Source: Ceratodon purpureus
Taxonomy: Eukaryota > Streptophyta > Bryopsida > Pseudoditrichales > Ditrichaceae
Reading direction: 5' to 3'
Assembly: GCA_014871385.1 (NCBI GenBank)
Contig: CM026426.1
Span: 72,539,573-72,603,572 of the forward strand
DNA length: 64,000 nt
Within the stretch, counting starts at the first letter, position 1; every line of letters starts with the position of its first letter. The position numbers and the translations under genes were made by a program. Positions 40,563-63,979 of this stretch are shown piece after piece. The notes under the pieces were generated by a model. That model saw only the letters and a list, made by a program, of their open reading frames with translations. It ran no database searches and had not been told where the DNA came from.

Positions 40563-40587
40563 CAGGGTTTTCTATTCCGTCGCGACG
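40555..40587 (+). repeat. Left target duplication and TIR of the giant hAT
   Basis: ACTATTAC target copy, then CAGGGTTTTCTAT and a CGTCGCGACG palindrome. Confidence 0.75.
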
Positions 40588-41078
40588 TGCCCCTCTCGCG
40601 TCACAATGTCGGGACGTCACGACGGTGTACAGTCACGACCGGACGTCCCATTCGGTCTTTATCGCGACGGCCCAAATATTTACGGCAACATTTTCACTTT
40701 TACATTTCCGCCCCGGCGACACCTCGGACAGCCGATGTCCACGTCTGCGATAAAGGTGGTCTGATACTGGTGGGCCCCAGTACCAGTCCGCTTCGTCCGC
40801 GCCACCCTGTACGATCCGATACCCAGTCCGATGTCCGATCCGACATCCGCTTTCCGCCGGATCGATGCCCCGTCGTCCGACGGGTCTTCGTGATCTCGTC
40901 CGCATTCCGGCATCCCTCAAGGCGCTTATCCGCCATCCGATTGCTGTCGGCTCCGACGAAGTCCGCCACATTCTACTGTCCTCCTCGTGGTCGGACCCTG
41001 GTTCGGCCACTATCCCGATATTGTACCTTCGACGGCCAAGTTCCGACCTGAGTTCGGGTCCGACGCATATCGAATTCG

Positions 41079-41581
41079 GATGTCCGGCAACATATCCCGG
41101 TGGACTCCCATCAAATGGACTGGCGTTCTATGCTACGCCTGCTTTATCTTCATGGTCGTTCTAGGAATCGGTGCATTATTTTCCACTTCGGTAACGGCTC
41201 GTTGAAACGTGACACTTTGACTGCATTTCAGCGATAGCTCACAGTGCTGGGATTCCAGGGAGTCCTATCGCCTTGTTCGGGCCAGCCCAGTTTAGGAACG
41301 ATTCTGACTTTAGCGACGATGAAGAGTATTTGGCGATCGTGGAGATGGGGACGAGAGTCAGGCCGAGTTTCTTACCTGCCATCCCGGGAGACGTCTCGGA
41401 GGGCATCATCTGGAAGATGTTGATGGTCGAGGACGACGACATCGAGAACTACAGAACATGCACACTCCTCCGTTGTGTTTGCAGGGGGTGGAGGAACTTT
41501 GTGGATATTCAGCCACGTTGGTACCAGAGCCGATTTGCATTCAACCTGCGGCCTTTTATGGATTCTGAAGACGAATCCTAG
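41079..41581 (+). CDS. F-box-like protein with N-terminal membrane segment
   Basis: Two exons. The first begins at ATG 41,079 (MSGNISRWTPIKW), includes a hydrophobic stretch (VLCYACFIFMVVLGI) and can end at a GT near 41,171. The second starts after the AG at 41,229 with matching phase and runs to a stop at 41,581. The C-terminal half contains IPGDVSEGIIWKMLMVED, TCTLLRCVCRGWRNFVD and WYQSRF, which fits the pattern of an F-box (leucine-rich helix, then the CRxW-type VCRGWR core). F-box proteins bind SKP1 in SCF ubiquitin ligases. Weak points are the short length, about 150 residues with no substrate-binding repeats, and the tentative splice. It is the first cargo gene inside the left end. Confidence 0.5.
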
Positions 41582-41682
41582 GATATTGTTCATTGAAACA
41601 CTAAGGTGTAGGGTACCAAACATCGCAGTTTAGTACATCAAGATCTGCAATGCTTAGGGTTTAGCGTAGTTGCAGGTCTGCG

Positions 41683-41726
41683 ATGGTCGGATTGGTGTCG
41701 ACCATTGTCCGGCGCCTGTCGGACAA
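41683..41726 (+). repeat. Two abutting 7-bp-stem hairpins
   Basis: ATGGTCG (41,683) pairs with CGACCAT (41,699-41,705). The next hairpin, TTGTCCG (41,705) with CGGACAA (41,720-41,726), begins on the last base of the first. The rest of 41,590-42,270 is non-coding. Confidence 0.7.
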
Positions 41727-42272
41727 CGGGTCGAACACTGCATTGCAGCCGAATAAGGCTGGTTTATCATGATATTGAATCCGTAAGTATTGGAATCATG
41801 AAACTTTAATTCTTAAATCATTGATGATACTGTAATCATACTTGTACATGCGTGGTCACTAATAAGTTCATGATGCCATTACATGTCCGGGGCCGTCTAT
41901 CAATTCTGTTCTCGAGTGATACTCGTGTGATAGGGTGTATTATGAATGATATCATACTCCCTAGACATATCGAGCGTGTTACGTTTTATGATAATACCGT
42001 CGGCCCTGTTATAACTGCGTGTACGTCTGTTCGCAACTTGGGATTGATTTCATAATCCCAAATCTAGGTGGATTATAAGTTTTATTGCAACTGAGAGGGA
42101 AAATTAAATGCCCATTTGGAACTATGATGATCATCGCCTCCCTTCTTCTATGTGTTGAGCGCCGTTGGTAATGCAGCACCATTGCGGAAAACGTTCTTCC
42201 TCCGTGGTGTAGCGTTGTCTATTCTCCGCGCGCTGACCTGCACCAACCTCAACTCATTTCGAGCCGTGCCCG

Positions 42273-43112
42273 ATGGCTTGCTCGCGCGAGTGCCCTCCAT
42301 CTTGTATGGAAGGGAGTAGCCGGTGCCTAAGCAAGTTTCTCCGATCGGACTACGAATCCGCGGATTTGCCAGTGTGGGTTGATGCAGCGAGGAAAAGGGG
42401 AGGGGAGTTTCAACATGCGAAAGATGTGCCGAGATCCAAGGAATGTCTACGGACTTGGCTCGAATCCGTCGACGCGTTTCAGGAAGAGTATGGCCTCTTG
42501 TGTCCCGACTTCTCCGCCGTGCCCCTCATGGAGACCCGTCTGTGGGCGTCGAACTGGGACCCAGTCGCAGTGTTGCAGTTCCAATCCGTGGCGAATTGCA
42601 CAGGCATCATGCATCCGATGCGCGTGCGCATTCCAGCCGAACGGGTGGTGCAAAGTGGGGTCCGGGGTGACGAGGAGGGTCGGAAGATCGTGCGGACACG
42701 GACTGGGGGTCCATCGAGCGATCGAGTGCGTGAGGGGTGTGCATGCGCGCATGCCCGATGGTGGAGGGCTGGAAGTCGGACGAGGACGACGCCACTCCGC
42801 CGGGATAGAATCAGGGGACTTGGCCAGGTTTCATTGCATATGGAAGTGGGAGGCGCAGCGCTGGAATCTCGTAGATCCATAAGGGCGGATGCAGAATCCC
42901 CTAATGCGACACGCGGATCCTCCGGTGATGCTAAGAAGCGTAAGGTGGACGAGGAGGAAGACCACTCCGAGCATGAAAGTGACGAGACTCGCGAAATGAC
43001 GGACTACGAGTTCCAACGGTATTGCTGGAGAACGATGCCTTATCTCGGTGAGATGTCGGATATTGTGAACAAACAGGAGGGTTTTCAGCAGAGTTTTTGG
43101 GAAAACGCTTGA
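42273..43112 (+). CDS. Hypothetical nuclear-type cargo protein
   Basis: An open frame of 279 codons. The first 110 residues (ESADLPVWVDAARKRGGEF, ETRLWASNWDPVAVLQF) and the last 70 (KKRKVDEEEDHSEHESD, YEFQRYCWRTMPYLGEM) look like real protein. The middle, about residues 125-190, is arginine-rich and less convincing and may hide an intron. KKRKVDEEED fits a nuclear localisation signal followed by an acidic patch. I do not recognise a family. An in-frame ATG exists at 42,273, but the true start may be in an upstream exon. Confidence 0.5.
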   Translation: MACSRECPPSCMEGSSRCLSKFLRSDYESADLPVWVDAARKRGGEFQHAKDVPRSKECLRTWLESVDAFQEEYGLLCPDFSAVPLMETRLWASNWDPVAVLQFQSVANCTGIMHPMRVRIPAERVVQSGVRGDEEGRKIVRTRTGGPSSDRVREGCACAHARWWRAGSRTRTTPLRRDRIRGLGQVSLHMEVGGAALESRRSIRADAESPNATRGSSGDAKKRKVDEEEDHSEHESDETREMTDYEFQRYCWRTMPYLGEMSDIVNKQEGFQQSFWENA

Positions 43113-43488
43113 TTTTAATAGACGAGTGTTGCAGCTGTTAATGATTCTGCTCACTACCAATCTTGGAATGCTTAACTCTGGCCTTCTCTTTCTCTGACTA
43201 TTTTGTATATGGGACGAGAATTTTCGTAAATTTTCGGCCTTACTATAATATTTATTCCCCATTTATTATTATGCTGATCTTCCGATGATCAGAGTATATT
43301 TATGTTTTATAATGATGGAGCTATTCCGAACGTCCCCCGTAGTTTGATATCTCCTTTCTGTTTCGGAAATATCCATCCAGTGCAGTTTCTAAGCAGACAT
43401 GCATCTTCCAACCTCTTGTCTAATTGCTAATGCATTGCGTCGATAACGGAGATTCTCCGTATTTAACCGGACACTATTTACTTCGTAA

Positions 43489-43947
43489 CTACCTAGATTT
43501 CCTAGCTTGTTCGATGTCATTATTAAGTTTCTGGTACTTGGATGGCCAAATCGCCTCCAGTTCCTCGACGTAAGTCTTAGGCTTTGAAGTTTCGGTCTCT
43601 ACGGATGCGGCTGGTCTCCCCCGCGAGTTTCTTCGTATCGGACCTATCGCGGTCGTAGCAGCGGTGGAATGCTTCCTTCCCAGTGCTGGGGATGACCTCC
43701 CATTACTACTTCCTCCGGGCTTCCCGTACTCGTTGTTGTCCTTCCACTTGCATCCCTCGTTACCTGGAATGCATAGACCTCCCCCCAATACTTGTACCTT
43801 GTCTACGCCGATGTCCTTGTCTCCACTGCCCGCTCCTGGAGCAGTTTTCTTATCACTGTCCCCAACGACTTCGTTCCTCTCGGGATTCCAAGAGAGCAGG
43901 AACTCTAATACCTCATCCTCTAGACTAGTTATGTCACAAGGATCCAT
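43489..43947 (-). CDS. Hypothetical 152-residue cargo protein
   Basis: Intact ATG-to-stop frame on the minus strand, opposite to the other cargo genes. The N-terminus (MDPCDITSLEDEVLEFLLSW) and C-terminus (LEAIWPSKYQKLNNDIEQAR) look helical. The middle is glycine- and serine-rich with basic clusters. A TATA box sits about 80 bp upstream (44,036-44,028 on the minus strand), which supports it as a real transcription unit. I do not recognise a domain. Confidence 0.6.
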   Translation of the reverse strand: MDPCDITSLEDEVLEFLLSWNPERNEVVGDSDKKTAPGAGSGDKDIGVDKVQVLGGGLCIPGNEGCKWKDNNEYGKPGGSSNGRSSPALGRKHSTAATTAIGPIRRNSRGRPAASVETETSKPKTYVEELEAIWPSKYQKLNNDIEQARKSR

Positions 43948-44027
43948 CTTGTAACTAGAGAGGACTCGTCCACAATAACTTGCAGGCTAACTGCATCAAA
44001 AGGGACCTGTGTTATCACACTTCCCGT

Positions 44028-44036
44028 TTATATATC
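44028..44036 (-). promoter_or_regulatory. TATA box for the 43,947 gene
   Basis: TATATAAAC on the minus strand, about 80 bp before the ATG at 43,947. Confidence 0.5.
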
Positions 44037-45010
44037 ATGGCATACCTCGCGCACTATAGTCCGCCATTCGCCCTTTGCCGGACGACGCTGCCTCGGATTG
44101 AATCCGAACGTCCGTTGCCTGCTGCCCCTATCCGACCGTACCGGATCACCATCCGCGCTATACCGGACCGGCACAATCTCCTGCCAAAGGGCGGATGCGC
44201 GGGGTTCGTATTATCCGGCGCCGTTTTCACTGTCCAGACACAATCCGCCTTTCCGAAGTCGGATTCCGCTTCGCAAAGTTCCGACCCCTGACCTATGCTC
44301 TAGAAGAACGACGCGATATTGTTTAATCGTTCCTGTAATCAACTATGTCCGCCTTCGCCGGAGTACTGCCCCGAGGTCGCGTCCGACCGATTCCGGAACG
44401 CGCACGTTTCGATCGGCGGACCACGTCCGAGCCTCTAATCCGTGGGGGTACCTCGTCCATGTCCGATTGCGGAGTTACCACATTCCGCAAAACGATCGGA
44501 TTTCAGGTAGTCCGCCCGTCCGTGGTTCATCCATCTCCGTACACGGGCCAATCTCACGGAGTGCGAACCACCTCCCCGATGTCAGCACACGACTGCCATA
44601 ATATGCAGATCCTGACCATCTTTTTCCTACAACGCGGACCAAAATCGAATCTGGTTACTGGACCGCCATCGATCCCGCTCTCGTCCGACCTCGTCCGCAA
44701 CACCCGGAACAACTCCGCGATGTTCCGCTTCCTGGTCCCGGACACGCTCGGGGAGTGCCATAAAAGATGCGACTCACCACGATCTGTTCTCCCTTCTTTG
44801 CACTGCGTGTCTCAGGACTCTGGGGTCTCGACTGAGGTTCCTCTGCATGAGACCCAAGTGTGCTCAAGGGGTCAAGCATAGCCCACTGGAACGGACCGTC
44901 CGAACTCCATCGGAGATCTGGAACATAATCAGGGCAAGGCCATCCCTCCACCCTCGTTCAACGACGCTAGAAGTGCGTTGTCGGGCGCAATTTCTGTAAT
45001 AGGTCCATCT
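44037..45010. repeat. TCCG-rich non-coding block
   Basis: Very dense TCCG and CCGAC/CCGGAC motifs in non-coding DNA between the minus-strand gene and the transposase. The long open frames here come from that composition and look random. Confidence 0.55.
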
Positions 45011-45060
45011 CGCCTTAAATAGTGCGTTCACCCTCCAGATTCTTGCTTTCTGTCGCAGGC

Positions 45061-48000
45061 ATGCCGCGAAGAGTAGATGCCTGGGATCAGTGGTGGCAAG
45101 ACTTGGGCGTGGTGGGTGCGAGGCCTCAGAGACAGGTTAGGTGTAGAATTTGTAATGTGACTATTGTGTACCGTCGGGATAGAATGTTCGCCCACTTTGG
45201 ATACAGACCTTTAGGTGGTCCAGGTAACTACGGTATACAAGTTTGCAGGTTGCTGAGTGCGCGGGTGAGGAGGTTGTTCGTAGACTGCGGAGGTGAAGTT
45301 CCTAGAAGAGAGCCCGATGATGTTCATGACATTGGCTTGGGAGGTGACGGGGTCCCAGATCCGGTAATACCTCAAGCTCCCGATAACGAGGGGGCGCGCG
45401 CGAATGATGGGCCAGCTATGCAGGAGCCCGATATGGCACCCCAGGGTTCTCCACCCAGGGAAATGCGTCAAGTGAATCTTGTGCAAGGATTCAATGCTTC
45501 CACGAAGCTTCGATTAGATAAAGTGTGGGCGACGGCATTCTACGAAGCCAATATCCCATTCAACGTTATTAAGCATCCTGCCTTCATTAACGCCGTTCGG
45601 GAAACAGTGCGAGCCCGCTTCCCGGCATACCTGCCGCCATCGATGAATGCTATTCGCACAAAACTGTTGAGCGCGAGAAAGGCGGAAATGGTGAGACAAG
45701 TAAGGGAACTCACGGGCAATTCCACAGAGAAATACGGTGTTACGATATGTGCAGACGGTTGGGACAACGTCCAGAGTCGTCCTCTTCTGAATGTTATCCA
45801 GAGTGGGACCAGGGGCGACGTTTTCCTTGGAACCATAGACACGACGGGACACTACAAAGATAGCGATTACATCACTTCTCAGATCCGTCCGTTTGTGGAA
45901 CGGGCCGGACCGCAACATGTGGTCCAAGTTTGCACTGACAATGCTCCGAACATGCTTGGATCCAGTCGGATGCTCGAGACACGATATCCTCACATTTATG
46001 TTCAAGGGTGTGCCGCACATTGCTTGGATCTGTTGCTCGAAGATTGGGGGAAGCAGGATTGGGTGAAGCACATAGTCAGAAAGGCGAGACTTATTTGTCT
46101 ATGGGTTAGAAATCATCATTCATCAATGGCTTTGTTTCGCAGGATGTGTCCCAATCTGACCATCCGTTTGCCCGTTGAGACGCGGTTCGCGACGAATTTC
46201 ATTATGATCGAGCGTCTTGTGGAACTTCGGAATGCATTTGAGAGAATGGTCATCGATCCGGCGTTTGCAGGTATTTTAGCAACCTATCCTGATGTGAACA
46301 GCTCAGCAGGGAAGAGGGTCCGCCTATTTCGGAAGTACGTGCGTGCGGACGGTTTCTGGAACACGTGCCATAACTTCCTGTACATGGTCATCCCAGTGGT
46401 GAAGGCATTACGCCTTTTTGATGGGAAGGCACCTGCAATGGGCCTAGCTTGGAGGGCGATGTACGATTTGAAGAACCACGTCCGCAGTTTTTCCTCCCAT
46501 CCGTTTAGATTGAACGCGGACCTGGCAGCAGACGCCATGGTCGCATTCGACCACAGATGGGCTATGATGTTGACAGATCTTCATTGGGCAGGTGCGATGC
46601 TCAACCCGACCCTACGTGGATGGGCGCCACTTCATAACCACGAGGAGTCGAGGATCATTTTAAACCGGGTTTTTCGCAAGTTATCCTCTAACGAGGAGAA
46701 TTACGTCCAGATCCTTGTCCAGTATCAGGATTTCCTCGAGAATCGGGAGGCATTTGCTGATTCAACCGATCCCTAGGCGCACGGCACTGCTATCCACGAA
46801 TGGTGGGACGCAATGGGAGGTGGAGCCCGGGCTCTCCAAACAATAGCTAGACGTATACTTGGACAGGTTTGCTCCGTGTCTGCGTGTGAGCGCAACTGGA
46901 GCATGTACTCTTACGTGCACAGCAAGGTGCGCAATAGATTGAAACATGTACGAGCGGAGGACCTCGTGTATATCTACACGAACAGTAGACTCGTTCGTCA
47001 CCGCCGGGCCCCGCGTCCGGCACAGTGGTATGGCTTAGAGGAGGTTCATTCCGACGATGACCTCGATGGCGAGGATCCGGACGAGGACGACGAGGAGGAA
47101 GACGTCGGACGGGGAGGAGACCATGTAGCGGACGATGTGGCGGACGATGCCCGCATGGATGGTGTCGGACAGGGCGGATTGGGCATGGGGGGTGTCGGAC
47201 TTGCGGACGACGATCCGCCCGAGAGCGACTTTGAGGAATCTGGATCGGACGACGCAGGATCTGACGGTGACGACGGTGGCGATGTCCGGATTGCCGAGCT
47301 CTTCCACAATATGTTCGACGCAGGACATCGCCGAGATGCGGTTGAAGATATCCTCCGCCAGGATAGTCGCGTCGGACGGCAGGCGTATGCAGGAGGTGAG
47401 CGTCGAGCTCAGAGTCCGATCAACGAAGCAGAAATACAGTCGGACAGAGGAGATGGTAGTCCGGCCCGGAGGATACCTATCGTCGACGCGGACTTCTCGC
47501 AGCCTTGGAGTGATTCTTTGTCATTTGGCCAGAGGGATTTCGACGAGAACCTGGCGAACATGGAGGGAGAGATTCGAACAGTTTTTCAGGAGGATTTACC
47601 ACCTATCAATCGCCGGAGAGATGAAATGACGGAGGAAGATTCGAGAAGGAGGATGGCCGACCAGGAAGTTCAGACTCCGTCTGAGGAAATACGCCGTCCC
47701 ATAACTCGAAGCCTTGCTAGTACGTCCGGAAGTATGGCTGTAAACCAGCAACAGCGAGCTTCTGCCCTGCTCTCCACCCCCGTTGTTAGGGGTCACATCC
47801 TTCCGCAGCAGACCTCCGGCCGGGGTCGCAGACGCCGAGCAGTAGGATCTGCTGTAACCAACGGTAGCCAGTCCGTTGTTCTGACCGCGTCTTCTTCACG
47901 CAGCCGGCCCGTGCGGAGAGGGGTTCCATCTACGTCGATCCGGGACCCTGCGGCACGTGCATCTAGTTGCACGACTGGGGAAAGAGTGTCCAGTGGTCCT

Positions 48001-48306
48001 GCAAGGGGAAGTGTTATCCAACGAACAACAAGAGGTGTAAAGCGAAAGAAAAGGTTCCTGGGGACTGCGTCGCGTTTCGCCCCGTACGAACCTGACAACT
48101 CCGAAGGTAGACCAGAACTCGATGAAAATGGAATACGCGACCCTCAAGGATCCCGTCCAACGAAGAAGCTAGTTATCACCAGAGACGATGAGTTGCGGCT
48201 AAGCACTAGAAGTCCGCGGTCTGATGACGACATGAGCACAGATGAATCCGAGGAGGACCGACGTTGCGACGAAGCGAACGACCCAACTGTTCGGATCCGA
48301 GAGTGA
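45061..48306 (+). pseudogene. hAT-superfamily transposase with one in-frame TAG
   Basis: Transposase expected to mobilise the surrounding element. Start ATG at 45,061, directly after a possible acceptor; TTAAATAG at 45,015 is TATA-like. A BED-like zinc-binding start (RCRICNVTIVY, MFAHFGY) is followed by a DUF659-type catalytic region (YGVTICADGWDNVQSRPLLN from about residue 226, VVQVCTDNAPNMLGS, GCAAHCLDLLLEDWG). The hAT dimerisation domain comes late (ARRILGQVCSVSACERNWSM, then YVHSKVRNRL). A TAG at 46,774-46,776 separates catalytic and dimerisation regions; the frame is otherwise open on both sides. After the dimerisation domain comes an unusual tail of about 440 residues, acidic and then arginine/serine-rich. 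The tail is longer than in ordinary hAT transposases. Confidence 0.88.
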
Positions 48307-48309
48307 ACG

Positions 48310-48830: not shown

Positions 48831-49266
48831 TATCATTATTTCGTAGAGCATGCATCGTGGGAAGTCCCATTTGGTATAGTATTCCACATGTGGATGTAAT
48901 TGTACGTGATTTACAAACAGAGTGAGAATATGTATTATAAAAAACAAATGGAATAAGGAAAACATTGGAATTTTTTGGCATCCGTTTTATAAAAGCCCAA
49001 ATAACAAGTTATTAAAGCGTGTGACAATCATTTACTAATTACGGCATTTACATTCCAAGATTCCTGTAAAATCTCTAATCTCTTTTTTAAATATTTGTTT
49101 ATGCAACCAACACATGAGTATAGTAATTACGTTGATTTTGCGTACATGTGCATATAACAAACATGTGCATATAAGAAACATGTGCATATAAGAAACATGT
49201 GCATATTAGAAACATGTGCATACGTGCTCTCTAAACCCAAATCCCATTATCCTCATTGTTACGAAA

Positions 49267-49671
49267 GGGGGGGGGGGGGGGTGGGGCTGCGGTGGGGTAG
49301 TGATACCTCACAATGCGGTAAGTTGCGGTATGTTGCGGTAAGTTGCGGTAAGTTGCGGTGCGTTGCGGTAAGTTGCGGTTAAGATTTAATTGAAACGCCT
49401 TTCATATCCAAAACTTTTTGCCTACATATGTTAAACCTTTTGCCTACACGCCAACCAACTTTGTCATACCTAGTTAAATCGTAGTATAATTTATACGGTC
49501 GTTATATTTTTTTAGGAAATTTAATTGTCCTCATCGGAATTGTAGTTGGACTTCTATATTATTTTTTAGTCTACTTTCACTCTTATGCCATCTAATTGAT
49601 CATTGCCACCAATTAATTCTAATTTTAATATCGTTGCAATACTCCCGTTAGTAATCACTCTGTATTTATCG
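49267..49671 (+). repeat. Duplicated module, copy 1
   Basis: Order: a 15-G run (49,267-49,281), the phrase TACCTCACAATGC, a TTGCGGTAAG decamer array (about 49,313-49,380), then a 291-bp block (49,381-49,671). Confidence 0.85.
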
Positions 49672-49687
49672 ATAGATTGGGGAAGGT

Positions 49688-50772
49688 GGGGGGGGGGGGG
49701 GGGGGGGGCGATGGGCTAGTGCTACCTCACAATGCACGTGCAGTCGTCTCTCTACTTCATTTCTTCATGTTATCCGTGTGCACATGGCTCCGCTTAGTTG
49801 CGAGGTTCGGCGAAGGGAATTTCTCATTGCCGTTCCATTTACAACGAACGTCTTCTCCAATGATGGCCATGGCTTCTGCTACGTTTGAAACAATGGATAT
49901 TGACGAATCATTTGCTGAACTCAAGCGCTTAGAGGATCTTCAGGTGACTTAGGGTCGACCTGCAGATTTGCTGGCTTTAGTATATTAGCTTTAGTATGAT
50001 ATAGCCAATTGCAAGCCCTGTTGGTCCAGACGTTAAACACAGCCAAGTTTAACATAAAGTTTAACAAGAAATACATGTATTTGGTCAAATATGAATTAAA
50101 AAGGTAAAGAGAAACGTATAATAAACACATCAAATTTAACATTGCTAAAGAACTCAATTTGTTAAAAGTCGTAAATTGTTTGTGAATCATTCTTTGAATA
50201 CACAGAATATTTAATCGTCATCCAAGAACAATAATGACGCTAAAAACTTGTAACTTTAGCAAATAATTATAGTATAGAGAGGTTGGGCTTTTTTACTACC
50301 ACTGGATTGGACGTTGTTGTACCACTATACTCGTCAAGGAATGTGGCAACTTACTGTTTAAAGCAAGTTACATTACGTTACGTTGCGGTAAGTTGCGGTA
50401 AGTTGTGGTTAAGTTGCGGTACGTTGCGGTACGTTGCGGTAAGTTGCGGTAAGTTGCGGTACGTTGCGTTAGGTTGCGGTTAAGATTTAATTGAAACGCC
50501 TTTCATATCCAAAACTTTTTGCCTACATATGTTAAACCTTTTGCCTACACGCCAACCAACTTTGTCATACCTAGTTAAATCGTAGTATAATTTATACAGT
50601 CGTTATATTTTTTTAGGAAATTTAATTGTCCTCATCGGAATTGTAGTTGGACTTCTATATTATTTTTTAGTGTACTTTCGCTCTTATGCCATCTAATTGA
50701 TCATTGCCACCAATTAATTCTAATTTTAATATCGTTGCAATACTCTCGTTAGTAATCACTCTGTATTTATCG
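49688..50772 (+). repeat. Duplicated module, copy 2, with extra segment
   Basis: Order: a 21-G run (49,688-49,708), TACCTCACAATGC, about 640 bp of extra sequence including the possible exon at 49,862, a second TTGCGGTA-type array (about 50,371-50,481), then the same 291-bp block (50,482-50,772). The two 291-bp blocks differ at about four positions with no indels. Confidence 0.85.
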
Positions 50773-51737: not shown

Positions 51738-52352
51738 ATGGCCGGGAGCTCCTCGTTTAGAATGCCTAGTCCGACAGAGTCCTCCCCGCACCCTGAGTCC
51801 GCCACGGATGTTTTGCAGTGGCTGCTTGTAACCCGCGTGATGCACGAGATTAGAGATTTCCGGTATTTACCAGATCACGAGGATATTGTGAGGTCTTTGT
51901 TGAATACTTCTCGAGATTTCCAGTGGACGCCCATTATGCAGGAGCAGTTCACCAACGTCAACAATGTGTTGAACTACACTTGGGTGCGACGGAGTCTACT
52001 CGCCGCCGGAGCTGCGAACTCGGGAGATCAAACTGCACACGGCTCGGCTCACGCGCAGAGCGGAACTCCCACGAACTCGCAGACCGTATCACCTAGAAGC
52101 GCGCATCGCGAGACGGACATCTCCGCTCCAATCCGACCGGACATATCTTCTCGGACTCTCGCCGGGGGTGGCCGAGTCGCACGGCATCGCAGAAGTCGGG
52201 AACGCCGGCTTAGTCGCGATTACGAAGGTATGCGTCCTCAACCCCCTGCTTTTCGCGGATCCACGACGCCCCGGCGCGTCACTCGCGACCAGGGAACGCA
52301 GACCGATTTCGTGGATCTTCTGTCGGAGCCGGAATGTACGTGTAACTATTAA
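51738..52352 (+). CDS. Hypothetical cargo protein, 204 residues
   Basis: Open frame from ATG 51,738 (MAGSSSFRMPSPTESSPHPE). The folded-looking part comes early (VLQWLLVTRVMHEIRDFRYL, MQEQFTNVNNVLNYTWVRRS). A serine-, threonine- and arginine-rich tail follows, with RHRRSRERRLSRDYEG and ending SEPECTCNY. I recognise no family. The organisation (short helical start, disordered basic tail) is like other cargo frames here. 52,353-53,690 downstream is non-coding. Confidence 0.5.
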   Translation: MAGSSSFRMPSPTESSPHPESATDVLQWLLVTRVMHEIRDFRYLPDHEDIVRSLLNTSRDFQWTPIMQEQFTNVNNVLNYTWVRRSLLAAGAANSGDQTAHGSAHAQSGTPTNSQTVSPRSAHRETDISAPIRPDISSRTLAGGGRVARHRRSRERRLSRDYEGMRPQPPAFRGSTTPRRVTRDQGTQTDFVDLLSEPECTCNY

Positions 52353-53760: not shown

Positions 53761-53816
53761 GGCAAGAGCAGGATGGCCAGTGGGTTGGGCGGGTGCGGAA
53801 CGGAGAGGCGGACTCG

Positions 53817-53824: not shown

Positions 53825-54119
53825 CAAGTTCGGACGCACGTTCGTTCTCCACACTTCTCAACTTTTGCGCCCAGACCGCTTGCCTCTCTCTGAGTGTGCG
53901 GGCGCGCGGGGTGCGGGGTGAGCGTGGGGTCCTTGTACGACCTGAATATTCCGTATGTACTAAATTGACCCTATTCGTGTGCTCTGTCACATTATATACT
54001 TAATGTTAATTTTTTCCCCTGAACCCAGCATATGCGAAGTGTCCGTTTAGGGTTTAAGAGTAATCGTATCAGGATCTAACCAAGATACTGTGAGCAGGTC
54101 CGAAGTTCGCAGCACGAGG

Positions 54120-57100
54120 ATGTCCACCGGATCGGGCACTCCCTCTAGGAGGAGGCCGAGCAGACCGGGCGGAGATGAGTCCGCCGGCGGATCGCAGTCC
54201 GCCAGTGGTTCGGGAAGAGAGCCCGCAAAGAACTGGATTTGCAGCTGGACGTTTTCCACAATAGAGCGATACTGGCTGCTAATGGCTGGGAGGAAGTGCC
54301 AGAGCCTTGGGACGCTGCGACGGCTATGCATTTTGTCGACTTTCCTCACTTCGATCGGCTTTGGCCAGATAGTTCGCACGCGCAACACTGTAAGTCGAAG
54401 AACGCGAAATATGCATCCTTGACAGACGTGGACGTGAAGTGGAGATTCCTCTGCACTTCTCCGGGCAATTTCCAATGAATCGAAGTGGCCCAAGAACGAG
54501 ATCCCGAAGGCTATTCTTTCCCTGATGTATGCCGAGCATGTGTTGAAGAAGAAGGTCGACTGGTCTACCTTAAAGACTCCAGGCTCCACTTTCGGAGGTC
54601 TAGGAGAGAAATTGACAGCGAAGAAGCCGGTGCACATACCTTATATAGATGTGCCCGAATGGTTCAAGCGTAATCCTTCCCTCGTTGAAGATCCAGGGGG
54701 TCCGATACCGACAGACAGGGAACCGTCGAGGGCCGGGAGACCACGGCAACGCACAATACAGAATGCCACGTACGAGGATCAGATGGCTGGCATGCTCGGA
54801 TCCGATTGGCAGGGAAGTGGGTCGGACCCCATCATTGGCGGGAGTGCGGGAGAAGGGTCGGGCGCGGCGACTGCATCCCATGCGAGGGACGGGGGGAACG
54901 ATCGGACGGGATCGGCATGGGGACCATCCGAGGCAGGTGAAGGAGAGTTCCGGGCCAGATGTGGCTATGGTCGGATTGGAAGAAATCGTCAACGCGACAG
55001 TAGCCTCCTTTTCTGGAGCTGACATAGACCTTGACATGGCGCACGGTGGGACCGAGAGCGCGAATCCGGGTTTAGGTAGGTCGGACGAGGGTTTGGGTGC
55101 GTCGGACGAGGGTCTGGATGCGTCGGACGTGGGTTTAGGTGGGTCGGACCACAGATTCGATGGGAGAATCGCTCCGACGACCTCACGGGATTGGCGGATG
55201 CCCGGCTCGGAACACGGGTTATTCGGACGAGGTGCGACAACTAGCACTGGCCATCACGATCCTCCTCAGCCGAGAGGTGCAGCAAACGTTGTATTGGGAG
55301 CAGACCCGGTAATGCGGCGTCTGCTAGAGGAAGTTTTTGCCAAACATGACGCGGACGTTCGGGAGTTAAAAGCAACAATAGGTGGTTTGGAACTGAAGAT
55401 AGAGGCTCTTCGCGTGTCCGACAGCGGGGACCTAGATGGCAGGAACATCGGACACAGAGTTGATGCGAGAAAGGGACGAGGCGCTGAGATCCGCTGAGAG
55501 AGCGGAGGCACGAGCTAATGCATGGGAAAAGGATATGAAAGCCTCCATGTACGCAGCGAAAACGGCCGAGGACCTGACCACGCAGTTAAATGGCCAACTC
55601 ACGGACGCTGAGGAACGCATAATTGGGTTGCAAACGGAAATGAGGGAGATGAGCGTCCGACTCGAAGATGCGGAAAAGCGAGCAATAGCGGCGGAAGCCA
55701 CATCCACGGAGCGGGCTGTCCGACTAGAGGAATCCGAGATACGTGCGAAGGCAATGGAAGACGAATGTCGGAGACTGTCTCGCCAATTGGAGGAGGAGAA
55801 GAAGAATACATCGAAGCAAGGAGAGATAATCCTGCGACTGGAGTCCAAAATGGAAGATAATAAGAAGAAGGCTTCGGACGCAATAGCTTTGGCAAAGAAA
55901 ATACAGGAAGAACTAAACGAGCTCCGGGAAGTCGCTACGACGAGCGACAACTTGATACGTGCGGAGGCAGAGGCGGAGAAAGAAGCAAACAATGCCAAGG
56001 TGGTGGAATTGGAGACAGAGAACCTGCGACTACTAGAGGAGGTAACACGGCTTGGGAAGGCCACTGGCGCTGTGAGTGAAGGTGGTGCCAACGATGATCC
56101 AATCCAGGGCTGGTCGGAGTCATTAACTCAGGAGCAGAAGGCATTACTCGTGGGTGCGCTCCAAAAAACGGAGGATATGTACGTGATCGCTATACTTGCA
56201 TTAGCGGGGCGACTTCAGTACGAGAAGGAATTCGAGGCAATTCAAAAAGAGTGGACGGAGAATGGACGATTGCGACACTTGCTCCTCACCTCCTGGCCGC
56301 CTTTACAGACGATGTACCCTCTGGAATGGGAGGACAGTCCGGGGATCCGGTCCGGCACGGGCAGCATTCAGTGGGAGAATGTTGCTGAGATTGATCATCA
56401 CTGGAAGCGGGATCAGGAATGGGGGATGGGCAAGACCGAAGAGCTGCGGAAGGCGCTGACTTGGCCCGTCCCGCACGACATGACAAAGGACGGAACCAAT
56501 TGCATCGTGTGCTTTAATCCTTTTGGCCCGGAGGGGTGCTACCAACTGGGGACGTGCAAACATGGATTTCACCCATATTGTTTAATCCCGATGATGATAA
56601 GAAGACGTGCGTGTCCAATCTGCTCAGCCCCTCTCCATCCTCGCCTGTATTTGACATTCGGATTGAGGGATTTCATGCCCAGGGGCTGGGCGTACGATCC
56701 AAGGGAGTTCCCAGATAAGTATCCGCTCGGGACTTTCGAGGGAAAACCAATGGAGTGGGTCTGGCAACTACACACGTCGCAGCTCGAGATGTGGCACCAA
56801 TTTCAGCCTACGGACTTGCTAAAGAAACCGAGGACCATTATGCAAGCGGCCGATTTGTTGTACCCAGGGATGCCTGTCGATAGTGGACTCAGGCAATACT
56901 TTTACCAGATGTGCAAACACTACTGGGACAGTAGGAAGGGCCAGCTGGTTCCAGGGGAGAATCCAAATCCAGTGAATTCACAAGGATTGCCTGCGACATC
57001 TGCCGACGTATTGGCAGGATTTCCAGGAGGAGGATATACGGGTGCTACCAGTAGTCGCGAGATGGATTACGAACAGGGTTACCACACGATGCGGCTAGAG

Positions 57101-57445
57101 ATTCTCGCTTTAGAAGAATTGTTATGCAAAATTCTCCCCGCTACCAAGAGGTGGCTGGATAAGAAAGGACCGAGGCCCAAGCCGAAGGAGCCATCATGTC
57201 GTCAACGCTTGTTATCGAGTGGTGCTTCGACTTCAGGAACTTCAGGGGCCACACCAAGGAGCGCGACACCGCCGGGGAATTCCACGAGGAATGCGTCACG
57301 AACCCGTTTGAACCCAAGCCAGTCGGCACCTCCCTCCAGAGTCCCGACACCGCCGATTCCGCCGTCCGAGGGCCCAACGCAACCTGACCACAATAGTGCA
57401 GCGTCCGGATCAGGTGATACATTGCAATTAGACGATTCGGAGTGA
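54120..57445 (+). pseudogene. Large coiled-coil RING-finger protein, frame broken
   Basis: Several frames in order look like one protein. The start is at ATG 54,120 (MSTGSGTPSRRRPSRPGG). A segment with VFHNRAILAANGWEEVPEPW follows; a possible 55-bp intron (54,390-54,444) and a lysine-rich part (AEHVLKKKVDWSTLKTP) lead to a repetitive GLGASDEGLDASD region. The main 669-codon frame (55,436-57,445) has a long coiled coil (to about residue 205) and a RING-type zinc finger: CIVC (about 355), GTCKHGFHPYC and CPIC (about 392). A proline- and serine-rich tail ends it. RING proteins usually act as ubiquitin ligases. One-base frame changes occur near 54,215, 54,945 and 55,435; they may be decay, sequence errors, or a separate gene starting at ATG 55,436. 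Confidence 0.68.
55072..55150 (+). repeat. 24-bp coding minisatellite
   Basis: Tandem units around GTCGGACGAGGGTTTGGGTG (about 3.5 copies) encode the SDEGLGA/SDEGLDA/SDVGLGG series in the RING gene region. Confidence 0.8.
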
Positions 57446-57631: not shown

Positions 57632-57722
57632 CATGCGACCGAGTCCGAGTCCGCCCATGCGTCCGAGTCCGGAATCCGCCCGTGCGTCCGGGTCCGAGTC
57701 CGCCCATGCGTCCGAGTACGCG
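57632..57722 (+). repeat. 24-bp TCCG minisatellite
   Basis: About 3.7 units near CATGCGTCCGAGTCCGAGTC with CCGCC, in the TCCG-rich block between the RING and kinase-like genes (about 57,600-58,100). Confidence 0.8.
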
Positions 57723-57978
57723 TGGTGCAATCACCGATCGACCCATCCGTTCGCATCATAAGATCGCGAGCCCATGCGGACATAGCAACCCCCCCCGTCC
57801 GACGACCCGCCTCGTCCGCATTCACAGTCCGCCAAGTCCGACTGTGCGATCCGACCAACCCGCTAACCCTAATTCGCTCACAGGCCTAGATCCTACGTCT
57901 GCCACCCGACCGATCCCTTCCAAGGGTGATCGCCAAGCAATCAGTTATCGTCCCAGATCAATGATCTTCCTCGTCTCC

Positions 57979-57987
57979 TATATAAAG
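57979..57987 (+). promoter_or_regulatory. TATA box of the kinase-like gene
   Basis: TATATAAAG, 239 bp before the ATG at 58,218. An AG acceptor (CTTTCCAG) ends just 6 bp before the ATG, so a short 5' leader intron is likely. Confidence 0.65.
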
Positions 57988-58217
57988 GTGTCCCTTTATT
58001 TTCCGCTCACTTTCCCATCCTCTCTAGGCCTCTCGTTGGGATCCGAGACTCTGTTGCGTCCGTCGGGACAGCGGCAGTGCGCGGGTCCGGAGGGTCAGTA
58101 GAGCACGGGACCGATTTCAGAGACAAACCCTTGCTAATTTATATCAGGGTTCTGAACTGACTCGCCTACCGAAAAACCAATTGCTGATTGTTCTGTTTTC
58201 TTCCTTTCCAGGGTACC

Positions 58218-60152
58218 ATGGCAAACGAGAGTGGAAGAATACATCAGGAATGGCGATCCGACGGGAGCCCCATCGGAGCACTCGGGGTGGGCGGGGGGCG
58301 TGGCGGAGAGAGAACCAGGTTTAATCAGGAATTCACCCCGATGGAAAACCTCGGAGGAGGCCACTTGCAGCGAGCGCGGGGAACGCGGGGTGGCCATGGT
58401 TCCCGGAGTCACGGCTCTCGTGCAACCCATGGATCAGGGGGGCGACACGGTGCGATAGGGAGCCACGCCGCGGAAAACATCGGCAGCCAAGGCACTAGGT
58501 CTGGTCCAGCAAGCTCGGGAAGTTCTAGCGGAGTACAAGCACCCGCCATGGAAATCGTCCCGGCACCTAAACCACTACCTAGGGTATTGTGGACATCGGC
58601 ACCGTCCGACCAGTGTCCGCCGTCTACTGAAGAGCGTAGGGGAAGTAAGCGGGCAGGGGGGTCGCAAGGAACGGAGTCTGGGTCGACCGCGTCCGGTTCT
58701 GAGGTTAGGAAGCACAAGCATCGGAAGAAGGTAGCCGCGTGTGACCAGCATTCCACGGAGGCTAGGCTTTGCTGTAGAAAGATAATCCTGGACTGGTTTG
58801 CAAGCCACGACATGCCATACTTGGAGAGTACATTCTTGAATGATGGTCCGGCGGGACTCGAGAAAGCTTCGAATGCTCTGAGGTTAATACTGCAGGAGGG
58901 CATGGCGGGGGATGAGTTCCAAGAGGATAGAGGGAAGAGTAATTGGGGACAGTGGATCGAGGAACAGGTGCAGGAGGCATTGTTCAATTCGACAGTGCCA
59001 TTTAACATGTTGTGTGGACCTGGTTCGGGATCTAGTGGGGGAAACTCCGAGCTCCTACAGAAGCTGGAGAATTGGAAAAGAGGTGCTATCCTCGCGAAGG
59101 GGAAGGGAAGGACTACACTGCCGAAGTTTGTCGGAAGAGCTCTGGCCGATGACATCGCTTCTCGGGACGGAAACGGTCTGAAGTGGCTACCGAAGGGTTC
59201 TTACGCCATCCCCGTAGACGAAAATAGTTTTCAGGGTTCGTTTGGAATCGTGCGAAGGGTGCGAATTGCAGAGGCATGTTTCATCCCGGAGTGGCTTCAT
59301 TTTGCAGGGAAGACCATGAAGGTGACTGACTTCAAGACAAGTCGCGATCAACGCTCTATCGAGGCAATGTCATGTCCAGTTGATCACCCTGGTGTGATTA
59401 AGCTGCAATACCTAAACCGGAAGACGCTCGAGTCGTACTCGCTATGGTGGAACGGAGGCTCGTTGAAGAACATGCGTGCGTTCGATTTGAAATTTGGGGA
59501 AACCCATGAAATGGAACTCCTCAAAGACGCAGGTCTGGACTTCGAGGCCCGGAAGAAGCTGGTCGTTTACCGAAAAAATCGAGCTCACTTGGCCTGGGCT
59601 CTCATGTGCATCGTGGATGTGGTACACGGCGAGGAAGTGCTACACTGCGACCTGCACCCTAACAATGTCATGCTCCACTTTCCAACAGACCGCGACGGAG
59701 TTATTTTCATAGGTATATGTGACTGGGGAATGGCTTCTTTCATGCCCAAATCGGCCCCTTCGTACTACGGAGTACAGAGCGAAGACGCGATAAAGAAGCA
59801 CATGGAAATGTACAGTTGTGCCGCTCCGGAGTTGTTCCATGTGCATGGCTCTAGAGGCTCATCCCAATCCCCACGTCGCATGGCAAAGCAGCACCCTCAC
59901 ACGTACAAATCAGAGTCCTATAGCGTTGGAGTACTCGCAAGGCAGATTTACAACTCCGACTCGACATCGGTTCTATTTCAGCAGAACCGCGATCCTAACG
60001 GGGTTAAGATGCGCTTTGAGCAGGGTTTAGACGAAATGACCCAGATCAACCCGGCTGCTAGACAAACCGTCACACACGTCATGAGGACGTTGAAGTTACC
60101 ACCTTACAATCTGCAAACACCGAATATGTGTTTCCGGGACACCCATTCATAA
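58218..60152 (+). CDS. Protein-kinase-like protein carried by the transposon
   Basis: Uninterrupted frame of about 644 codons from ATG 58,218 in a strong context (ACCATGG). The first 200 residues are glycine-, serine- and arginine-rich, with a basic patch (RKHKHRKKV). The kinase fold follows: glycine loop NSFQGSFGIVRRVRI (about 334-348), candidate lysine in FAGKTMKV (about 365), catalytic loop VLHCDLHPNNVML (Asp about 477), metal-binding ICDWGMASF (Asp about 501), APE region CAAPELF (about 534) and SYSVGVLARQIY. The usual HRD is HCD and DFG is DWG, but the key Lys, both Asp and the Asn are present, so activity is possible. It lies in series with a RING protein and other cargo genes, and a TATA box supports expression. 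The substrate is unknown. Confidence 0.78.
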   Translation: MANESGRIHQEWRSDGSPIGALGVGGGRGGERTRFNQEFTPMENLGGGHLQRARGTRGGHGSRSHGSRATHGSGGRHGAIGSHAAENIGSQGTRSGPASSGSSSGVQAPAMEIVPAPKPLPRVLWTSAPSDQCPPSTEERRGSKRAGGSQGTESGSTASGSEVRKHKHRKKVAACDQHSTEARLCCRKIILDWFASHDMPYLESTFLNDGPAGLEKASNALRLILQEGMAGDEFQEDRGKSNWGQWIEEQVQEALFNSTVPFNMLCGPGSGSSGGNSELLQKLENWKRGAILAKGKGRTTLPKFVGRALADDIASRDGNGLKWLPKGSYAIPVDENSFQGSFGIVRRVRIAEACFIPEWLHFAGKTMKVTDFKTSRDQRSIEAMSCPVDHPGVIKLQYLNRKTLESYSLWWNGGSLKNMRAFDLKFGETHEMELLKDAGLDFEARKKLVVYRKNRAHLAWALMCIVDVVHGEEVLHCDLHPNNVMLHFPTDRDGVIFIGICDWGMASFMPKSAPSYYGVQSEDAIKKHMEMYSCAAPELFHVHGSRGSSQSPRRMAKQHPHTYKSESYSVGVLARQIYNSDSTSVLFQQNRDPNGVKMRFEQGLDEMTQINPAARQTVTHVMRTLKLPPYNLQTPNMCFRDTHS

Positions 60153-61390
60153 ATCACATGTGAGTATGCAAAACTCCTTAGAAACGTTTTGTCCAACGCG
60201 CAAGTACCGCTTCTTAGTGGTCTGACAATTTGAATATAACTATATCATTCTAACACCAGGGTCCGAGTTTGCATTCGCCCAGGTTAGGCGCATAGGAGGT
60301 CATGTACCGTCTCTGAACAGATCAATTTGTAAATAGAGTTTGTTTGTCAAATTCCTGACCCCGAAGCCATGATAGAGTGATTGTAATTCCACAATATTGG
60401 GACCGAGAGCCCTAAACACCCAACCTTTATTCCACGACGGACCCTCTGAAAATGGTCCGGCGACGCGGACCACCCCCTTGCCCACTGCACCCGCGGATGG
60501 TGCCCGTTCACCTCAAATCCGTGCGATCCGACACCCTCCTGCAGTGACCACTGTCCGACATCTAGTCCGCCCACTCCGCGTACTCGTTGTGCCCGCTCTC
60601 TGATCCGTCTTACTGGCGTCCGAATCATGCCCGCTTACTAGTCCGCCCCAGCCGCGTCCGCATATCATTGCCTTCCGACTCTAAACCCCGATCCGCATCC
60701 GCCGGTCCGGCCTCAATCGTCCGCTACATTAAACCACTTCGGTCTTCAAACCTGGGGACGAGGAATGTCGGAAAGACCGGACGACTGGCCGAGAAATACG
60801 GCTCGTGTCCCGTGCTTAGGCAGAGACAATGTCACAAATCCTCTTCAACAACGTGAAATTCAAACTCTGACCAACTCATGAACGAAAATCCCCAGTAGAA
60901 CTTACGAACACGAGAGTTGATCGGTGTGACACTTCAGTAGAATTACAAGGTGCATAGATTTTTTGAATGCAATGAATTTCGTGTTCATCCATCTATTAAA
61001 CCGTCTATTACCCACAGCCTACAGGACATTTGAAACACCATATTCATGTTGCAATGATGGAGCCTATTTGGATACACTGAGTGTTGAAGGAGGAGTACGA
61101 AGACAGGAAGTCCTGAAAGGTATGTTGTCAAGTCACAGTCGCCAATCCGAACTCAACCCCTCAAATCACCATAATGAGATGACCACCTTGGCGTTAAATA
61201 TGGCGGCTGCCTGTAGGGGTAGCCATGGCCAGCCATGGCCAGGGCAGTTCCATTCAATCCACGCCATCGCTGAGAGTTTTGGTTGGAGTCGCCATTGCAT
61301 TCTGGTTCCAACTTGTAGTTCGCTGGTCTGAGGTTGCCCCGGTCCGATCGAAGAGGAGGGATATACCTGTTGCGAGTGAGAGGGGTCAGA
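60153..61390. other. Non-coding spacer with TCCG-rich part
   Basis: TCCG motifs cluster at 60,440-60,800. A palindromic decamer AGCCATGGCC occurs twice in tandem at about 61,221-61,240. I find no convincing gene; an open frame at 60,963-61,331 looks random apart from a short patch. Confidence 0.5.
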
Positions 61391-62530
61391 ATGGGAGAAG
61401 TTGGGAAGGAGAATTACTTTCACGTGAAGGTTGGGTTGCCAAATGCAGGTTTGGACCCCGCCTTCGACTGCAACCATGTCAGCAATGAGGAGCTAAGGTC
61501 CGTATTCGGAGAGAGGGTTCCTGGGAAGGGATATCTCGTCGACGGAGCGAATTCAGGAGAGGTCAAGGCGAGAGTGTTGGAGCTGTACCCAGCAATCTCT
61601 CAAATTCCCGAGCTTCCTGCGGGTTTGTTCCTCCCGGAGAGCTTCGCGAGAGCGGTCGTTTCGGAGGTCTTCCATCGCTACCCAATGAACTGGGCAAAGT
61701 ATGCGGAGGATCGCTGGAGGGGTAAGAAAATCGAGAGCGGAGACGAACTCACAGTCCTGTATCGCACCCCTGACCGGAATGCCACCTACGTCGAAACCCT
61801 CTACAAGGGCCTGGAAGCCGAGATTGCGATCGCTGAGAAGGACTTCGAGACGGCCGTGGCAATCCATAGTGGTGCACACGAACGGGCTGCGCTTCTGAGG
61901 CAGACGGCCAAGCCACCGCTCACGGATATGGAGAGGTACAAGCTTCAGATCAAGCTGATGTGCATTGAGGAGACTATGGACTCCTCCGAGGCGAAACTGC
62001 AGAAGTGGGGGGCGATGAAGTCCGTCGTCGAAGGCTCTGCTGATGAAACATTCCTGAGGTTCTTCAAAGACGAAATTTTCGGCGAAGAACAGAGAATCTT
62101 GGAGGCTGGGGAGGAAGTGCAACGTATGAAGGAGGATTTAACTGAAACGTCGGCGAAGGATCTCGCGGTGGCCATCGAGGTTGAGAAACGCCTGTCTTCT
62201 GCAAAGCAGGATGCAAGGGACAAGGTGATGGCTTGAAAGAAAATCTCCGCCAGCTTCAGATATGGTCGTCTTCATCAATGTTCCGTGCCCCCAGTCCTCG
62301 AATCGCAGCGCCCACTCAGAACATCGACTCAATTACCCTTACAGTGCAAGGTTGCTCCCTTTGTAACCAAGGGTTTCCGGCGATGGACATCGTGACTGCG
62401 TCGTGCGCTTGCCCATACCACCCGTGGTGCGCTGGCAGTGCGGACGTCGCTTAGTCAAAACTGCGCAAGATGCGGGGAGCATTTCGCACAGAACTGGTTG
62501 AACAGCTTCGGCTTTTTCAAGTGCGAAGGT
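61391..62530 (+). pseudogene. Coiled-coil protein with C-terminal RING-like zinc site, frame broken
   Basis: Start ATG 61,391 (MGEVGKENYFHVKVGLPNAG). A folded-looking N-terminal part includes NEELRSVFGERVPGKGYLVD and PESFARAVVSEVFHRYPMNW. A long helical, glutamate-rich region (KLQIKLMCIEETMDSSEAKL, AEEVQRM-like heptads) runs to TGA at 62,234-62,236. The reading continues one frame over with LKENLRQLQIW, then a cysteine/histidine site: CSLCNQGF, SCACPYHPWC. A further one-base shift gives CARCGEHFAQNWLNSFGFFK. Together these give the C-x2-C ... C-x-C-x2-H-x2-C ... C-x2-C spacing of a RING-like domain. Two one-base breaks (about 62,233 and about 62,440) mean decay or sequence error. A second zinc-binding coiled-coil cargo gene, similar in layout to the one at 54,120-57,445. 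Confidence 0.55.
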
Positions 62531-62989
62531 ACGTCAATGTCGCGCAGGTGCATTGATTTCCAGTATTGCTGAATCCGTTGCGGAACCGAATATGAAAAAC
62601 TTCCGACTTATGAGTCTGTATCTTGCATCTGATAAGCAATTTTTTTTGAAATTCGTTTTTGACATGATACTGTGCATTAGAGTGTCCAGGGCGCTGGTCC
62701 GGAACTGATATCTGAGTTTTGCTACAACAGCGCGAGTGGGGATTAGCAGTGCGACAGATACCGGAGAGGGAGAAAAGAAGCGCAAGCATTTGAACTCGGA
62801 CATTGGAGGGTGGAATTATGCGCGCAAGGACAAGTCGACCTCTACATGCCGCCGGAAATCCAAATAGTGTTTTCCACCTCCGATTTCTTGGAAGACTGCG
62901 ACTGTATCTCAGCGACGGAATGGATTGCATTGTGACTACGCAGTGAATTTTCTTACAGTAGCTTAGACACTTTACCTTTTTTAAACTCC

Positions 62990-63165
62990 CAACTGTGCAT
63001 CCGAACCAGGAAAACTTTGATCAAAGACTGTTTGTAAGGAATTTTCGGACCTATACTCGTTTGATAACTAAGCTACTATCACGGAAGTCCTGTTTTTTAT
63101 AAGGAACCTTCAGAGCTATACTCTTTCACTGACTAAACTTCTACCAAGACAGCCATGTTTTAATG
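62990..63165 (+). repeat. About 64-bp degenerate tandem duplication
   Basis: TAAGGAATTTTCGGACCTAT (about 63,035) and TAAGGAACCTTCAGAGCTAT (about 63,099) head two similar units, both followed by ACTCxTTxxxTxACTAA-like sequence. The rest of 62,540-63,300 is non-coding. Confidence 0.6.
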
Positions 63166-63317
63166 GCATTCATCTCGATTACAATATATAATCTGATGGA
63201 ATTCAATGTCGGTTTGAGAAGTAGTTGGTCAGTGTGTCACTTCAGTAGTGTCGGATGGTTCGAATTTCATATTTGCTCGTGAAGCAGTTGAGCTGTATGA
63301 AAATTGAAGACAATATG

Positions 63318-63622
63318 TTCCCAATCACAGCATCGCGGACCACCCTGTATGTGTTCGTCCACATCGCGTCCGCCCGGTCCGAAAGCCTCCGTCCGCAATA
63401 CGATCGGCATGAAGTCCGCCCACCCGGATACGCATTATCCCGCCTACACGCCCGTCCGAGCCATGTTCCCAACACCCCACTGCATCGCGGACCACCCTGT
63501 ATGTGTTTCGTCCACATCGCGTCCGCCCGGTCCGACAACCTCCATCCGCAATACGATCGGCATCAAGTCCGCCCACCCGGATACGCATTATGCCCGCCTA
63601 CAGGCCCGTCCGAGCCATGTCC
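63318..63622 (+). repeat. 152-bp tandem duplication in the right subterminal region
   Basis: Two copies, each starting near CATCGCGGACCACCCTGTAT (63,331 and 63,483) and running through CAATACGATCGGCAT, CACCCGGATACGCATTAT and GCCCGTCCGAGCCATGT. Differences are few. The unit is full of TCCG motifs. Confidence 0.88.
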
Positions 63623-63946
63623 GCCTACCAGTCCGGCCCACTCGCGGACTTCCCCGGCATCATACGGTCGTGTTCCTCCTCAATCGTCCGCCAGGCCTAA
63701 ACACGTCCGCCCCTGAACCCTAAATCGGTTGCCCGTCTCTGTCCGCCCGACTCCGCCGTCGGAACTCCTCCGGACATCCACGTCACCGTCCGGGCCACCG
63801 CAATTCCAAGTAGGACGCCACGTAACGGGGCCGAGTAACTCTTTTACCCACGCTACTCACAGGACCTAGAGACCCTACGCTGACCCCTATTGTGACGTCG
63901 GAGGACCCCCGTCACGACCCATTCGGACGTCGCGACGGAAAAGTCA

Positions 63947-63979
63947 CGACCCGACGGCATAGAAAACCCTGACCATTAG
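63947..63979 (-). repeat. Right TIR and target duplication of the giant hAT
   Basis: ATAGAAAACCCTG ends the element at 63,971; ACCATTAG follows. GTCACGAC motifs lie just inside. The 21 bases after that are outside the element. Confidence 0.75.

Follow-up and report, generated by a model that had tools for sequence, protein, structure and literature searches.

Evidence for a giant hAT transposon family of about 23.4 kb, carrying kinase, RING-like, and F-box-like genes, in the moss Ceratodon purpureus

We analyzed a 64,000-nt stretch of the Ceratodon purpureus genome (C6:72539573-72603572 of a 362.5-Mb assembly in 151 contigs; hereafter, the window), in which positions 40563..63971 very probably constitute one mobile unit bounded by inverted repeats, belonging to a giant family of cut-and-paste hAT DNA transposons with a complete length of about 23.4 kb. 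A preliminary description of the window had reported matching inverted ends 23.4 kb apart, and CAGGGTTTTCTAT indeed occurred exactly at just two sites in the window, on opposite strands (40563-40575, +, and 63959-63971, -), while two more sites matched it with 2 mismatches. The terminal inverted repeats of the 23,409-bp element (left, 40563..40589, +, starting with CAGGG; right, 63945..63971, -) were 27 nt long with 89% complementarity, and with a seed of 12 and a minimum length of 20, no inverted pair other than this outer one was reported within the element. Inverted repeats that start with CAGGG-like or CAGRG sequences are typical of hAT elements. Next to the repeats lay two pairs of subterminal GTCACGAC motifs, which are candidate transposase-binding sites (at 40616 and 40632, within 40616..40639, +; and at 63911 and 63943, within 63911..63950, +). 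The motif occurred four times in the element, each time no more than 90 bp from an end, and not at all in positions 1-40562 of the window.

When the genome was searched with 201 bp of each end, the best 40 of 248 candidates were scored for the left end and the best 40 of 261 for the right end; the identity of the scored ends was 99-100% (n = 40) and 98-100% (n = 40), respectively. Of the 40 left ends, 39 started with CAGGG and had unlike flanks, and the remaining one began 4 nt further in. For 18 of the 40 left-end places (window included), a right end was located on the same strand at a distance of 23.0-23.8 kb. The two ends therefore pair many times, the opposite of the outcome that the preliminary description had named as fatal to its proposal of a single giant cargo-carrying hAT, and that proposal gains support accordingly. 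The window copy and a copy at C2:24371545 were read end to end, and the other copies were read in part. The C2 copy was 23,401 bp long and 98.9% identical to the window copy over its whole length, and the internal order in the partial reads of further copies agreed with that of these two. Across the last 4.3 kb, ten copies differed by only 0.2-1.4% (mean 0.94%; 44 pairs, with the window-C2 pair omitted). These results indicate that the family is young, high-copy, and dispersed.

Both flanks were readable in 17 of the 18 23-kb copies, and a perfect 8-bp target-site duplication was present in 13 of them; one more (C8:7140686) had a duplication with a single mismatch, and three (the window, C2:24371545, and C9:6878948) lacked matching 8-mers. 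Among 14 perfect duplications (the 13 of full-length copies and that of a short derivative described below), 11 had C or T at position 2 and 10 had A or G at position 7. The window element is flanked by ACTATTAC on the left (40555..40562) and, as assembled, by ACCATTAG on the right (63972..63979), exactly as the preliminary description had written them when it called the duplication imperfect. This imperfection was considered as an argument against a single unit and rejected, since a comparison with the flanks of the C2 copy explains it better. The right flank of the C2 copy begins with ACTATTAC, the left 8-mer of the window. Between element positions of about 17.5 and 23.1 kb, the two copies showed zero substitutions and only single-base gaps, and in the last 0.3 kb they showed three adjacent substitutions and two gaps. 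By eye, the 29 right-flank bases that precede an N run in the window can be matched to the C2 flank if only small deletions are allowed, although a free-end alignment puts in one extra base; a BLAST search of this very short piece reported no match. When the left flank of the window and the right flank of the C2 copy were joined after one 8-mer, a reading frame continued without a stop for another 59 codons. The C2 flank has two other frames, one that opens with stops and one that runs uninterrupted for 89 codons, and the openness of the joined frame is thus weak support. The imperfect duplication in the window is probably an assembly artefact: the window and C2 copies may share one true right side, in which case the duplication at the window site would really be perfect and the C2 copy would be an assembly or recombination chimera. 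The frame interrupted by the giant element (39756-40562, +) encodes an unrecognized transposon-like protein, and its likely continuation lies in the right flank of the C2 copy.

The hAT transposase that had been proposed to lie inside the element was identified at 45061..48306 (+) and measures about 1,081 aa from the first ATG in unbroken copies. In the window, Pfam matches were obtained to DUF659 (E = 1.9e-37) and Dimer_Tnp_hAT (E = 8.9e-08); in a single 1,095-codon frame, open in two of the four copies read (the C2 copy and L021), the corresponding matches were PF04937 (E = 3.2e-37) and PF05699 (E = 1e-07). The window gene carries an in-frame stop at 46774-46776, upstream of the dimerization domain, and the L018 gene is stopped at a different place. 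Candidate D-D-E residues (ADGWD, CTDNA, and CERNWS) and a C-x2-C...H...C arrangement were read by eye and may represent the hAT catalytic triad and a BED-type zinc finger. The protein continues for about 440 residues past the dimerization domain, a tail that other hATs are not known to have. No match to the transposase was found among solved structures (E up to 0.01), and a search of viral contigs with the transposase, the kinase, and the last gene of the element found no relatives. Pfam scans of the main frames, which did not take in every open frame, recognized neither a second transposase nor a tyrosine-recombinase domain of the Starship captain type.

One copy has lost most of the interior. 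At C5:11170295 (L052; L006 1501-3201), a 2,366-bp internal-deletion derivative has kept nothing of the element beyond positions 1-901 and 21938-23409; it is flanked by a perfect 8-bp duplication, TGCCTAAT. In the mechanism that we propose, both the CAGGG inverted repeats and the subterminal GTCACGAC motifs are probable binding sites of the transposase, which would insert the unit at staggered 8-bp sites. Because the window's own transposase is stopped before the hAT dimerization domain, we infer that transposase can be supplied in trans by another copy. The ends with their GTCACGAC motifs, together with a transposase from a foreign copy, thus seem to be enough for movement.

Besides the transposase, the element carries several other genes, of which the best characterized is a protein kinase gene (58188..60152, +; 644 aa from the ATG at 58218), with a kinase domain at approximately 59295-60047. 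Its PF00069 match (E = 6.2e-10) lies above the curated cut-off, and GSFGIV, AGKTMK, HCDLHPNN, and CDWG, read by eye, are candidates for the catalytic motifs of a kinase. A single-sequence structure prediction was unusable (mean pLDDT 33.9), and only weak matches to solved structures were obtained (best E = 0.023). In the genome, the best 69 of 1552 kinase candidates were scored, and host kinases may rank below them. The 69 places were 85-100% identical in protein sequence, and by hand count 38 of them had no stop. For 25 of the 40 left ends, a scored kinase was present on the same strand at a distance of up to 80 kb; in 15 of the 40 this distance was 17,589-17,725 bp, and 14 of these 15 are among the 18 23-kb copies. 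Seen from the other side, it lay 5.3-5.8 kb inside 33 of the 40 scored right ends. Four 23-kb copies had no scored kinase, and three of them (L009, L010, and L014) contained its 3' part. The kinase is therefore cargo at a fixed place in the unit. The preliminary description had suggested that finding the internal genes outside such ends would speak against a single unit; the 33 right ends with a kinase inside point the other way, and since the best 69 kinase candidates and the best 40 ends per side were scored, kinase copies may also exist outside such ends.

The remaining cargo is less clearly assigned. The kinase, RING, and F-box-like identities given in the preliminary description scored above the Pfam cut-off for the kinase, just under it for the RING protein, and below it for the F-box-like frame; likewise, of what it expected several copies to share, the ends, the 8-bp duplications, and the kinase were recovered, and the RING gene was read in only three copies. 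This gene (55436..57445, +) encodes a 669-aa coiled-coil-like and RING-H2-type protein with the RING at approximately 56498-56623, and its PF13639 match was just under the cut-off both in the window (E = 1.3e-05) and in a C2 frame (5.5e-06). The Cys/His spacing read by eye, a candidate RING pattern, was C-x2-C-x14-C-x-H-x2-H-x2-C-x10-C-x2-C. Among the three copies, the frame was open in the window and in L013 and broken by single-base indels in the C2 copy. The last gene (61319..62568, +) is also coiled-coil-like and ends in a RING-like Cys/His cluster, read by eye as C-x2-C-x13-C-x-C-x2-H-x2-C-x10-C-x2-C, an eight-ligand arrangement that shares its 10-residue and 2-residue spacing with the RING protein; its Pfam match was nonsignificant (E = 0.94), and a search of solved structures found no match (E up to 1). 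In five copies, among them the C2 copy, it forms a frame of 417 aa. In the 11 copies compared (one partial), L010 had a stop, and the window and L014 had one gap each; the shift of the window frame near 62229 is probably an assembly error. The F-box-like frame (41213..41581, +; 122 aa; PF00646, E = 0.0064) was open in all eight copies read. Four further cargo frames were not recognized by Pfam. The frame at 42237..43112 (+), a 313-aa open frame in the C2 copy, had no match, nor did that at 43489..43986 (-; 165 aa), which was open in both copies compared. The frame at 51738..52352 (+; about 204 aa from the first ATG) was open in four of six copies and had no match near the cut-off, and the frame at 54051..55497 (+), again without a match, was open for 481 aa in the C2 copy and interrupted by single-base indels in the window. 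A relative of the element in L015 (7841-10000; C6:31447546-31457545) was 86-91% identical over positions 12.7-14.9 kb; in it, the 481-aa frame seems to be continuous with the RING frame, and the two may be one gene.

To evaluate selection, amino-acid changes were compared with a mutation model derived from the non-coding parts; the p values are uncorrected for about a dozen tests. In the transposase core, 8 of 18 changes (stops included) altered the amino acid, compared with an expected 74% (p = 0.008); the values were p = 0.03 for the whole transposase and p = 0.45 for its tail. The 481-aa frame (p = 0.034) and the N-terminal half of the RING protein (p = 0.041), represented by at most three copies, also showed low values, and the F-box-like and remaining frames were not distinguishable from neutral. 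The cruder pairwise pN/pS ratio was 0.17 for the first part of the transposase and 0.92 for the second, 0.30 for the kinase (three copies), 0.60 for the RING gene, 0.77 for the last gene, and 0.43 for the F-box-like frame. Between the L015 fragment and the 481-aa frame, differences at codon positions 3, 1, and 2 numbered 43, 30, and 23. Constraint on the cargo is thus hinted at, not shown.

Several observations weigh against the reading of the element as a single cargo-carrying mobile unit. A right end at 23 kb was not demonstrated for 22 of the 40 left ends: the short derivative accounts for one, for 10 others the right end lay at a different distance (13.0-74.9 kb), which may reflect internal insertions, a deletion, or a right end that belongs to a different copy, and 11 are unresolved, partly because of N runs. 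Near seven of the 40 right ends, no kinase was scored; one of these ends belongs to the short derivative, and two lie on 23-kb copies. Just two copies have been read end to end, movement itself was never observed, and the C9:6878948 and C2:24371545 copies are flanked by unlike 8-mers. Finally, no deficit of amino-acid changes was found in the kinase (p = 0.35), the last gene (p = 0.73), or the C-terminal half of the RING protein (p = 0.89). The C9 copy is of full length and appears, with its unlike flanks, to be rearranged or misassembled.

The absence of a deficit in these cargo genes bears on the possibility that the unit is real and its cargo inert, the captured genes hitchhiking and decaying while only the transposase and the ends matter. 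We regard this as somewhat improbable, though clearly the strongest competitor. It accords with the deficit in the transposase core, and the 2.4-kb derivative moved even though it lacks most of the cargo; because the kinase, the last gene, and the C-terminal RING half behave as if neutral, selection does not support a function for the cargo. The tests are nevertheless low in power, because copies drift neutrally after insertion, and inert cargo sits uneasily with the kinase standing at a fixed place in 14 of the 18 23-kb copies (and in 3' part in three of the other four), with its presumably intact catalytic residues, with its crude pN/pS of 0.30, and with the excess of third-position differences in one cargo frame relative to a relative about 10% diverged. 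As to what the cargo might do, the preliminary description had suggested an influence on element control or host signaling. It is conceivable, if unlikely, that the kinase and the RING-like and F-box-like proteins work for the element and not for the plant, perhaps through changes in host silencing, in repair, or in the stability of the transposase.

It is considerably harder to maintain that the giant size results from smaller transposons nested in a normal hAT, a pile-up instead of an element with cargo. TCCG runs abound in several intergenic stretches, an AT-rich stretch at 49127..50714 contains tandem units of 17 bp and 10 bp as well as a direct repeat of 300 bp, and further insertions do occur in other copies. 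Such nesting is nonetheless very improbable, given that the only inverted-repeat pair reported in the element is the outer one, that no second transposase was recognized in the frames scanned (not every open frame), and that the length is nearly constant in 18 copies, so that a composite, if there is one, moves as a unit. Although the usual hAT size of about 5 kb (PMC6710886) and the imperfect duplication in the window could be cited for host genes trapped once between unrelated hAT ends, by chance pairing or a single macrotransposition and with no standing family, this explanation is refuted, and its likelihood is negligible, because whole units repeat at independent target sites; chance pairing is excluded by the recurrence of the family (the scored ends, 18 of 40 left ends paired at 23.0-23.8 kb, and 13 of 17 duplications perfect), and 33 of 40 right ends have the kinase at a constant spacing.

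The copies of this giant hAT family are unevenly distributed by age. Contig C6 (110.5 Mb, 30% of the genome), is probably a sex chromosome, presumably the V; the sex chromosomes of C. purpureus are described as exceeding 100 Mb each and making up about 30% of the 360-Mb genome (PMC8000587). Among the 69 scored kinase copies, 25 of the 26 with an identity of at most 96% were on C6, compared with 16 of the 43 with an identity of at least 97%, a proportion close to that expected from its length (p = 0.33 against its share of the genome); the skew between the two groups was significant (Fisher p = 5.5e-07). Slower loss of old copies from a non-recombining chromosome would probably account for this skew.

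The window contains other mobile elements. A Copia-type retroelement (13529-17992, -) has gag, integrase, and related domains over 15692-17992, and reverse-transcriptase/RNase H-like frames recognized by eye adjoin its gag/integrase frames. A CACTA-like element (19658-23100, -) matched Transposase_21 (E = 2.4e-64) and DUF4218, and a pogo-like DDE_1/HTH_Tnp_Tc5 transposase spans two adjoining frames at 30184-33054 (+).

The giant element resembles Ac/Ds and other plant hATs in its 8-bp duplications, its hAT dimerization domain, and its internally deleted Ds-like derivative, and presumably also in its CAGGG-like inverted repeats; unlike Ac/Ds, it is about five times longer, carries several non-transposase genes, and encodes a transposase with a tail of about 440 residues. 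In the Ceratodon genome paper, "Lanisha" is reportedly a name given to transposons. The maize Ac element measures 4.6 kb, and the Ds-del elements are internal deletions of Ac (PMC3260210). PMC6710886 gives about 5 kb as the length of hATs, cites one range of 110 to 7144 bp, and describes a gene-capturing fungal family carrying histone H3, with intact units of about 9.5 kb on average. Like the fungal H3 elements, the family described here is an amplified hAT with a non-transposase gene and 8-bp duplications (PMC6710886); the fungal elements carry copies of one host gene, whereas the giant element has several unlike genes with no host source identified. Fungal hAT7 elements carry a TET/JBP gene and are thus likewise hAT transposons with an accessory regulatory gene, differing in their 7-bp duplications and in the dioxygenase described as their cargo (PMC12730594). 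The same paper likens Lanisha to EnSpm, within a group mostly with 2-5-bp duplications (PMC12730594), in contrast to the hAT domains and 8-bp duplications of the giant element. As a giant cargo-bearing eukaryotic transposon, the element also recalls Starships and Teratorn (PMC6431247, PMC12134995, and PMC10175614), but the enzymes differ: a tyrosine recombinase in Starships, a piggyBac-like fusion in Teratorn, and a hAT transposase here. In the main text of a 2019 review of giant eukaryotic transposons, the word hAT does not appear (PMC6431247). A literature search for giant cargo-bearing hATs, with the Ceratodon genome paper outside its range, found no report of the present family, and the unit far exceeds in size the hAT elements that the examined literature describes.

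As the 23.4-kb unit shows, several genes can travel together as a single block in a plant hAT. Only tentatively, we suggest that land plants may harbor an autonomous giant-hAT lineage whose standing set of regulators (a kinase, a pair of RING-type ligase-like proteins, and an F-box-like protein) would serve to control its own movement or host silencing, with old copies kept on the sex chromosome. The kinase copies offer an age ladder across the chromosomes, and the family provides a testable system for asking how large a load cut-and-paste transposition can carry at maximum and why a transposon keeps kinase and ligase-like genes.

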